Part shown: positions 22,106 through 23,694 of the stretch, in pieces
Layout: every line of letters begins with the position of its first letter
Position numbering within the stretch: the first letter of the stretch is position 1
NCBI RefSeq assembly: GCF_020176695.1
Contig: NZ_JAIWIA010000004.1
Span: 1-64,000 of the forward strand
Length of the DNA: 64,000 nt
Origin: Massilia sp. MS-15
GTDB lineage: Bacteria > Pseudomonadota > Gammaproteobacteria > Burkholderiales > Burkholderiaceae_D
Direction of reading: 5' to 3'
Position numbers and translations under genes: made by a program
The notes under the pieces: generated by a model
The model's database searches: none
Seen by the model: only the letters and a program-made list of their open reading frames with translations
Told to the model about the DNA's origin: nothing

Positions 22106-22222
22106 CATTTTCTTACAGTTCTTACGGGATTGGGACGGTTTCGATCTTGCGTGGATGCTATCTTGGGATATCGCGATTCATACGGAATCGTGAACCAGCC
22201 AAGACAAGTAAAGGATTCACGC

Positions 22223-22795
22223 ATGAAAAAGCTTATCGTTGCATTGATCGCTTCCGCCGCTGCCATGTCAGCGGCCCAGGCCCAGACGACTGCGCCGCGC
22301 GCCTATGTCGGTGCCGGCGTTGCCAGCGCCGATCATGCGTTCAAGCGCTCTGGCGCCACCAATGTCGATACCGAAGGCTACAAGGCTTCGGGCAAGCTCT
22401 TCGGTGGCTATGATTTCAACCAGAACTGGGGCGTGGAAGCGGGCTACACCGATTTCCGCAAGTCGGACGTGAATTACTCGATCGGCGGCGTCAATACCCG
22501 CGGCGAGACCAGCGGCCACGCCGTCTACCTGGCGGCCAAGGCCAGTGTGCCGGTCAACGAGCAGTTCTCGGTGTATGGCAAGCTGGGCGCGGCGCGCACC
22601 AAGAGTGAACTGGAAACGGTCAATGCGCTGCAAAACATGAGCCGCAGCAAGACCGAAGCCTACGGCGCGCTGGGCGCGGAGTACCGCCTGAACCAGAACG
22701 TGTCGCTGATCGGCGAATACGAGCGCTACGGCAAGAGCAAGGATGTCGGCGCCAAGGCCGACGTCTGGACCATCGGCGCGAAATACGCCTTCTGA
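22223..22795 (+). CDS. Outer membrane beta-barrel protein (OmpA-like transmembrane domain)
   Basis: The 190-residue protein has a signal peptide (MKKLIVALIASAAAMSAAQAQ) and eight predicted amphipathic strands. It ends VWTIGAKYAF with the C-terminal Phe typical of outer-membrane barrels. GGYDFNQNWGVEAGYTDFRK and GALGAEYRLNQNVSLIGEYE are typical of OmpA-like small porins without the periplasmic domain. A purine-rich RBS lies in GTAAAGGATTCACGC. Its intrinsic terminator is interrupted by the 190-bp MITE. Confidence 0.88.
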   Translation: MKKLIVALIASAAAMSAAQAQTTAPRAYVGAGVASADHAFKRSGATNVDTEGYKASGKLFGGYDFNQNWGVEAGYTDFRKSDVNYSIGGVNTRGETSGHAVYLAAKASVPVNEQFSVYGKLGAARTKSELETVNALQNMSRSKTEAYGALGAEYRLNQNVSLIGEYERYGKSKDVGAKADVWTIGAKYAF

Positions 22796-22816: not shown

Positions 22817-22828
22817 AGGCCCTGCGGG
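22817..22828. repeat. Left target-site duplication of the MITE
   Basis: AGGCCCTGCGGG is repeated exactly at 23019-23030. Twelve bases is within the 11-13 bp duplicated by IS4. Joining the two sites without the element rebuilds a terminator with AAAAGGCCC and GGGCCTTTT arms. Confidence 0.8.
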
Positions 22829-22868
22829 TAATACCGTTCAGTTAAGCAGTGCTGGGAGTATTTGTACG

Positions 22869-22911
22869 GTGGGCGGGGGAATCTAGTCCAGTGGACTAGA
22901 TTCCCGCCCAC
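22869..22911. repeat. Long REP-like hairpin inside the MITE
   Basis: GTGGGCGGG (22869-22877), two-base bulge, AATCTAGTCC (22880-22889), loop AGT, GGACTAGATT (22893-22902), CCCGCCCAC (22903-22911): a 19-bp stem. The flanks GTACG and GCGGT show it is in the opposite orientation to the copy at 22970, so the two form a BIME-like pair. Confidence 0.85.
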
Positions 22912-22969
22912 GCGGTCAACCAGCTGCGAAATCATCACGTACGGCTATCCATCGGCTAACTATCACCGC

Positions 22970-22990
22970 GTGGGCGGCGTAGCCGCCCAC
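22970..22990. repeat. REP-like palindrome inside the MITE
   Basis: GTGGGCGGC (22970-22978), loop GTA, GCCGCCCAC (22982-22990): perfect 9-bp arms, flanked by CACCGC and CCTACG. The 14 bases upstream, GCTAACTATCACCG, recur in inverted form beside the copy at 49473, so the repeat extends beyond the palindrome. Confidence 0.85.
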
Positions 22991-23018
22991 CCTACGCCCC
23001 CTTAACTGAACGGCATTC

Positions 23019-23039
23019 AGGCCCTGCGGGGCCTTTTTT
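23019..23039 (+). terminator. Intrinsic terminator rebuilt after MITE insertion
   Basis: AGGCCC (23019-23024), loop TGCG, GGGCCT (23029-23034), then a T run through 23039. It serves the outer-membrane barrel gene, with the MITE now transcribed before it. The stem is three pairs shorter than in the inferred ancestral sequence. Confidence 0.85.
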
Positions 23040-23051
23040 CTTGTCCGTGTA

Positions 23052-23585
23052 CTAGAGCCGGGCAAAGCCCTGCGATTGTGGCCGCAGTACCCAGGGCGGC
23101 ACGATCAGCTCCGGCGCCGGTGCCGCATGGCCGGCGTTGACGAAGCGGTGCAGCGAAGACCAGGGCCAGTCGCGCGGGTGGCTGCAATGGCCGTGGCGCA
23201 CGGCGTCCAGGTGGGTGTAGTCGACCAGTGCCGCGTACTCCTCGTCGTCGCCGACGCGGTAGTGCTGGTAATGCCGCTCCCAGATGCTGCCATCGCTGGC
23301 ATGCGGCACCGCGGCCTTGCGCAGCGCTTTCGAGAACGCGATCTTGACCGCGCGCCAGCGGCTGGAACAGTCATGGTCGCCCGGCGGCAGGGTCCACATG
23401 GCATGTGCATGGTCCGGCAGCACGACCCAGGCATCGACATGGAAAGGCTTGCGGGTGCGCGCCAGCCGCATGGCTTCACCAAAGGCGGAGATATGGTCTG
23501 TGAGCAAGGTGCTGCCACGTTCGAGCAGGCGCACCGTAAAAAAGAATGTCCCACCCGGGACGCGGTTGTGGCGGTAATCAGTCAT
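23052..23585 (-). CDS. REP-associated tyrosine transposase (RAYT, Y1/HUH)
   Basis: The 177-residue product has the Y1_Tnp fold. YRHNRVPGGTFFFTVRLLER opens the domain, the HUH metal motif is VLPDHAHAMWTLP (His59-Ala-His61), and the likely nucleophile is Tyr123 in ALVDYTHLDAVRHG, followed by DWPWSSLHRF. RAYTs act on REP hairpins as single strands. GTGGGCGG palindromes sit about 60 bp from its 3' end, and more lie in the window. The ATG at 23583-23585 gives the usual N-terminus. No transposon ends are seen around it, as expected for domesticated single-copy RAYTs. Confidence 0.88.
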   Translation of the reverse strand: MTDYRHNRVPGGTFFFTVRLLERGSTLLTDHISAFGEAMRLARTRKPFHVDAWVVLPDHAHAMWTLPPGDHDCSSRWRAVKIAFSKALRKAAVPHASDGSIWERHYQHYRVGDDEEYAALVDYTHLDAVRHGHCSHPRDWPWSSLHRFVNAGHAAPAPELIVPPWVLRPQSQGFARL

Positions 23586-23694
23586 GGGTTCCGTCAGTCC
23601 GCGCCTTGCAAAGGCAACGGACATCCAGGCCAACCGGCCCTCATCGCAAGGATTCTACACACCGCCTCGGGCTTGCCGCGTTCGTTTCCGCGCG

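Follow-up and report, generated by a model that had tools for sequence, protein, structure and literature searches.

The window, i.e. the whole 64-kb stretch of Massilia DNA analysed here, carries an outer-membrane beta-barrel gene on the plus strand (22130–22795; PF13505, E 2.3e-26), whose true start is probably an internal ATG, and, convergent with it on the minus strand, a gene for a REP-associated tyrosine transposase (RAYT; 23052–23633; NF047646, E 6.4e-42, with a PF01797 score just below the cut-off). Between the two lies a 190-bp element, an IS4-type MITE without assigned strand (22829–23018), which interrupts the terminator belonging to the barrel gene. It begins with the terminal inverted repeat (TIR) TAATACCGTTCAGTTAAG on the plus strand (22829–22846) and ends with GAATGCCGTTCAGTTAAG, read on the minus strand (23001–23018); these outer 18 bases pair at 16 of 18 positions. 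The direct repeat AGGCCCTGCGGG, 12 bp with 100% identity, stands on either side as a target-site duplication (22817–22828 and 23019–23030), its left copy being the 5′ half of the split terminator. If the element and one of the repeats are removed, what remains is an A-tract, the 16-nt hairpin AGGCCCTGCGGGGCCT and a T-tract. An earlier reading made from the sequence alone had claimed the upstream barrel gene, the 190-bp element with its 18-bp ends (16 of 18 pairing) and the perfect 12-bp repeat, and all of these are confirmed here.

Within the 64-kb window the 13-base TIR core has exactly two perfect matches, and three when up to two mismatches are allowed; at that tolerance shuffled windows average 0.56 matches, and none of 100 shuffles reaches three. 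No ORF of at least 90 aa overlaps the element. As a single strand it folds at −94.3 kcal/mol (z −7.9); a structured RNA family was rejected as its identity, the sole Rfam match over the window being a tRNA far from the element. A chance arrangement is ruled out by the duplication, the count of the TIR core compared with the shuffles, the further copies and the empty site in relatives.

Nine copies are found in this genome, i.e. eight besides the one described. Eight of the nine have both ends and the 12-bp duplication (perfect in five, with one mismatch in three); the ninth is truncated at the left and has a terminator-like right flank. Short, TIR-bounded, without coding capacity and present in several copies, the element has the make-up of a MITE. 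In the available parts of De Palmenaer 2008 (PMC2266710) the IS4 subgroup has ends of the form -AATR--------WTW---- and duplications of 10–13 bp; the ends described above fit this consensus (Table 1 of that paper) and the 12-bp duplication falls in the range. The element further resembles the subgroup, which includes E. coli IS4, in having a same-ended relative with Nterm_IS4 and DDE domains, and is unlike its members in having no transposase.

Full elements elsewhere in the genus, about 1.42 kb long, have the same 18-bp ends, those of genomes G060 and G003 measuring 1419–1420 bp with ends TAATGCCGTTCAGTTAAG. The transposase of locus L078, the one tested among the full elements, matches PF13006 (Nterm_IS4) and PF01609 (DDE), and a Y(2)R(3)E(6)K motif was read in it by eye. 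Ends are common to MITEs and autonomous elements in relatives, e.g. G060 with two full IS4 and 10 MITEs of other interior. At up to two mismatches, 32 of 62 genus genomes, our own included, contain the ends, whereas the reversed pattern gives two matches in all; PF13006 occurs in 9 of the 62. With the MITE itself as query (E 1e-8), 31 of the 62 match, again with our own included, and no complete copy with its interior was found in the genus outside this genome, the best match being 80% over bases 35–167. A profile search that was positive in an E. coli control genome found no PF13006 gene here, and a search run without a positive control found no relative of the L078 transposase. An identity as a non-autonomous IS4-subgroup transposon (MITE) is thus supported by these comparisons; IS4-derived MITEs as a kind are already known. 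The IS4-like ends suggested earlier hold up, given the subgroup consensus, the 12-bp duplication and the same-ended autonomous elements in the genus. The TIR search suggested with them returned the copies just described, and a full IS4 transposase with the same ends exists in relatives, with none found in the element's own genome, so mobilization cannot be demonstrated there.

A barrel-gene match is present in 62 of 62 genus genomes, our own included, and 19 loci were retrieved out of the 61 matching relatives. In 12 of these 19 the identical hairpin AGGCCCTGCGGGGCCT follows the matching gene without interruption, which makes the empty site real and agrees with the earlier claim that removing the element and one repeat restores the terminator. 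By eye, five loci (L336, L337, L342–L344) have other intact terminators after the barrel gene and L338 has no clear one; at L345 the search pattern missed the end of the barrel gene, so that 18 loci were read in all, and the element is absent from all 18. Neither a lack of other copies nor sister strains with the repeats and no element was encountered. The empty site and the copies bear out transposition of a non-autonomous element as the sequence-only reading had proposed; its "recent" holds only in a relative sense, since no IS4 transposase was found and three of the eight duplications carry a mismatch.

Of the 19 barrel-gene loci, 17 also contain the RAYT gene (L334 only part of it, at the locus edge); L342 has no match and L339 ends at a contig end. 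From this distribution the RAYT gene would predate the insertion. That it stays beside the barrel gene across the genus suggests vertical inheritance and not mobility. In L332, L336 and L339 a GTAG-type REP lies no more than about 50 bases past the intact terminator of the outer-membrane protein gene, so REPs and IS4 ends appear to share this niche.

Bases 36–168 of the element consist of two inverted GTAG-type REPs and a spacer. The left REP (22864–22916, plus strand; GTACGGTGGGCGG...CCCGCCCACGCGGT, with GTAGGG in other copies) has an extra loop palindrome, and the right REP (22965–22996) reads CGTAGGGTGGGCGGCTACGCCGCCCACGCGGT on the minus strand. REPINs are normally tied to RAYT transposases. 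The interior combines two inverted, tagged REPs, multiple copies outside the MITE (assessed in this genome, G060 and Pseudomonas paralactis) and a RAYT in the genome; REP-only matches do occur elsewhere in this genome. On sequence evidence the interior is a REPIN (inverted REP pair), a nature that had been missed when the non-autonomous element was first, and rightly, described as a MITE with IS4 ends. REP loops differ between copies: the extra palindrome AATCTAGTCCAGTGGACTAGATT is present in the left REP of five of nine copies, mismatched in one of these five, L006–L008 have a short loop, and L009 is without the left REP. REPs alone were rejected as the identity of the element, the ends, the duplication and the eight further copies marking a transposon. 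Neither IS4 ends nor a 12-bp duplication is known as a RAYT trait, and with both present a RAYT is an unlikely mover of the window copy.

IS4-type ends enclose REPINs elsewhere too. G060 has a 146-bp IS4-ended MITE in 10 copies, and its REPIN-only relatives mostly match around bases 27–128 (40 of 226 candidates scored); P. paralactis has a 156-bp MITE, eight copies of which are almost complete, and numerous REPIN copies centred on bases 33–132 (40 of 384 candidates scored). GTGG is a REP tag. When 48 short elements were grouped into 18 interior clusters, our own reading found inverted pairs with GTAG, GTGG or CGTC tags in 12; L121, L165, L221 and L294 are ambiguous, and L182 and L295 are not REPINs. 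GTAG and CGTC are both among the REP tags in the available part of PMC3733652. As far as these sequences can be read, unrelated REPIN families are repeatedly found between IS4 ends, both in Massilia and in Pseudomonas. The REPIN might instead have entered a pre-existing short IS4 remnant by an independent RAYT insertion, the product being amplified later, and would then not be cargo. We regard this as possible, if somewhat doubtful: a RAYT gene is present in the genome and REPIN-only copies end near fixed points of the MITE, clearly in G060 and less so in P. paralactis, where the borders are not uniform and several matches extend into the MITE flanks, but the events would have to be repeated, as unrelated REPIN families lie between IS4 ends in different genomes. 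None of the nine copies here has the same flanking bases without the REPIN.

The site in the window belongs to a larger set. When named genomes were scanned with TAATGCCGWTCAGTTAAG, at least 119 stretches were obtained, the matches listed coming from Massilia, Duganella, Herbaspirillum, Pseudomonas, Vibrio, Shewanella, Psychromonas, Alteromonas, relatives of Burkholderia and others. Empty sites were reconstructed where both ends and a duplication were present, first 43 and then, with more genus and E. coli loci, 74, of which 71 were distinct after near-identical targets had been removed; single-ended and contig-edge copies were used only among a separate set of 122 flanks from named genomes. 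Duplications, sought from 9 to 14 bp, measure 12 bp at 41 sites, 11 bp at 16, 10 bp at eight, 13 bp at five and 14 bp at one. Among the matches listed, these 71 sites in beta- and gammaproteobacteria, E. coli IS4 included, comprise 50 that score as terminators (29 with a hairpin and both tracts, 21 with a hairpin and one tract), seven with a hairpin only and 14 with neither, the last having no hairpin by the final rule and including the IS4 resident in E. coli K-12 and a copy inside bcsG. At terminator sites the duplication lies over the hairpin apex. Control positions in the 120 nt that follow the stop codon of an ORF of at least 200 codons give 1.9% terminators and 0.14% with both tracts (p 5e-69). 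By class, terminators make up 34/50 sites of elements shorter than 600 bp, 11/13 of longer ones and 5/8 of E. coli IS4. In our own genome five of the eight two-ended copies sit at terminators, L005 and L009 at a hairpin only and L008 at none.

The fraction depends on the scoring rule. Requiring the centre within one base gave 23/43 for the first 43 sites; RNA folding gave hairpins in 37/43 and hairpins with tracts in 21/43, against 37% and 5.2% outside ORFs; under this rule the A- and T-tracts are absorbed into the stem. The third rule, written after the sites had been seen and used from there on, gave 31/43 among the matches listed against 1.8% outside ORFs. The register over these 43 sites is sharp, with 29 at the duplication centre and none at −4 and +8 bases. 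The 122 distinct 30-base flanks, again among the matches listed, are one-sided and not filtered by duplication: AAAA lies 11–25 bases out in 81, an apex hairpin of at least 3 bp at the junction in 96 and both in 67, compared with 5.3%, 22.3% and 1.1% of random flanks from the same loci.

The E. coli loci comprised K-12 and 14 chosen by hand (H2, H6, H7, H9–H11, H16–H18, H20–H22, H24 and H25) among 40 listed matches (2739 records), and yielded eight distinct two-ended IS4 sites. Four are terminators with both tracts (nupC/pdeA, fieF/ogrK, zapB/rraA and yihL/typA) and one has a single tract (adhE/tdk); the site beside glcA has a hairpin only, and the K-12 resident IS4 and the bcsG copy give no terminator score. 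Judged from these sites, the type element has the same terminator habit.

These counts bear on a simpler account, in which an IS4-type MITE has no terminator preference and its sites survive because convergent 3′ intergenic regions are safe. An insertion between convergent genes would be about neutral, and zapB/rraA, adhE/tdk, nupC/pdeA and the window's own site all lie between such genes; we nevertheless hold this account to be very improbable, given the 1.9% of terminator apices behind long-ORF stops against 50/71 insertion sites, the sharp register and the under-use of tract-bearing non-ORF sites that lack a hairpin. Survivorship, i.e. the loss of insertions in genes, does contribute, though the register is left unexplained by the controls taken downstream of genes and outside ORFs. 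The terminator therefore looks like a target and not an accident, and terminators (A-tract, GC-rich inverted repeat, T-tract) appear to be what transposons with these ends usually target. The hairpin had originally been read as the site of one insertion, which is correct for the window and overlooks terminators as a regular target.

The 41 sites whose duplication measures 12 bp favour A at −8 to −4 ahead of the duplication and T at bases 4 to 8 beyond it, so that the consensus has an A- and a T-tract flanking a GC-rich dyad at a spacing of about 18 bases. Dyad pairing at offsets 5, 6 and 7 exceeds that in all 1000 column permutations; at offsets 3, 4, 8 and 9 it is raised but stays within the permutation maximum, and at 1–2 and 10–16 it is near expectation. 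Where both tracts are in register, a stem of at least 5 bp is present in 30/34 insertion sites against 30/118 non-ORF controls (p 4e-11), or 100/432 controls when ORFs are included. Seven sites have neither tract, and two of them, the palindromes L009 and L310, have stems of at least 6, compared with 4.8% of random tractless positions. A transposase reading double-stranded sequence or shape only, i.e. a symmetrical A-tract, GC-rich middle and T-tract with the hairpin incidental, would explain the strong columns (A at −8 to −4, T at +15 to +19 from the duplication start) and the sites L239 and L275, which have tracts but poor pairing. We think it unlikely, as pairing at offsets 5–7 surpasses the permutations, hairpins are enriched among tract-bearing sites and two of the seven tractless sites are palindromes; the stems in both kinds of site likewise disfavour targeting by tract sequence alone. 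Because of the excess of stems and the pairing above permutations, symmetry or the hairpin itself matters beyond the tracts, as far as aligned sites can tell.

In the window, the right duplication copy rebuilds a terminator on the plus strand (23019–23039): a 6-bp stem at −12.7 kcal/mol (hairpin 23019–23034) followed by a T-tract. The left copy, folded on the same strand, forms only a 3-bp stem. A scan of both strands found the plus-strand terminator at 23019–23034 and no other, hence none on the strand facing the RAYT gene. Of the bidirectional terminator, only the barrel-gene direction was regenerated, not the direction facing the convergent RAYT gene, so that the regenerated hairpin, from which the earlier reading took the insertion to appear neutral, serves one direction only. 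When the terminator directions of all sites are counted, 58 of 79 retain a 4-bp stem and a T-tract at the far junction, and 21 lose their terminator by our own scoring rule.

Full-length elements have terminators of their own. In 20/20 copies the terminal 130 nt at one end or both contain an inward terminator, and in 16/20 this is so at both ends (by our count about 11 distinct elements, eight of the copies being from E. coli), compared with 9/560 internal windows. Usually one is built from the terminal repeat, a nearby complement and a T-tract; in L078 (1362–1400) and L246 (4091–4125), a subterminal inverted TIR copy followed by a T-tract forms it. Some IS4-type elements have an inward terminator at the 5′ end of the transposase gene and others at the 3′ end. 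Such terminators would shield the transposase gene and replace a broken host terminator.

Taken together, we consider it highly probable that the element is an IS4 MITE with a REPIN interior that was pasted in trans at a terminator dyad, that such terminators are the usual target and that the insertion is nearly harmless. An IS4-subgroup DDE transposase acting in trans, none being found in the genome today, would have excised the element, which would then have been pasted with a 12-bp stagger at the dyad of the intrinsic terminator, the transposase possibly recognizing the dyad or hairpin directly. With the duplication spanning the apex, the far junction would often retain a hairpin and then a T-tract, and full-length elements would add their own inward terminators, for which reasons insertion would be near-neutral. 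A bolder version, for which we see about as much reason to believe as to doubt, has the terminator hairpin recognized as such by IS4-subgroup transposases whatever its sequence, with insertion at the apex in many proteobacteria, the inward terminators of full elements replacing the host's, and the ends repeatedly capturing REPINs to form double-parasite MITEs that act as portable gene 3′ ends. Target choice by DDE transposases is mostly a weak sequence or bending preference. If the proposed targeting is true, a widespread IS group hits a functional structure largely independent of sequence, which would offer a clean system for how a transpososome reads structure or symmetry, explain the tolerance of these elements, predict landing sites and mark functional terminators in genomes.

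In the literature searched, most subscription papers lying outside it, we found no statement that IS4 elements target terminators, no description of IS4-ended REPINs and no paper with an AAAN20TTT-like consensus string. A 1984 report is said to have described IS4 in the pheST attenuator with such a consensus, which would fit terminator targeting. Tn7 at attTn7 likewise inserts safely at a gene's terminator; unlike the elements here, it reads the glmS coding sequence via TnsD and uses one site. The available text of PMC2266710 comments on the target arms of IS4-subgroup insertions, and its main text, Figure 3 on target sites apart, does not use the word "terminator". ISRm22 (IS4 family), IS621 and IS1397 target REP palindromes according to the accessible part of PMC1525189 and resemble the present elements in inserting into hairpin-forming palindromes; they target one repeat sequence, whereas here unrelated terminators have structure and not sequence in common. 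In P. fluorescens, hairpin repeats are placed tail-to-tail (PMC2718517, as partly available).

From what is available of PMC3116915 and PMC3733652, REPINs and RAYT-associated REPs share with our interior the inverted GTAG-type palindromes and a RAYT in the genome, and differ in that the interior here lies between IS4 ends flanked by a 12-bp IS4-type duplication; "IS4" has no occurrence in the main texts of either as available. IS4–REPIN chimeras would therefore join two mobile systems hitherto described apart in the literature examined, and would give REPINs a second route to move. A 421-bp IS4-ended element in genome G040 (L311, 1036–1457) apparently contains a REPIN with a second inserted piece. 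Some IS4-type elements lie in a dispersed GGGTCAGA-type sequence (L082, L090 and L095 in G017, and flanks in L079, L085, L092 and L097), which resembles GGGGWSAS, given in the available part of PMC3733652 as the motif of the terminal repeats of RAYT-like genes.
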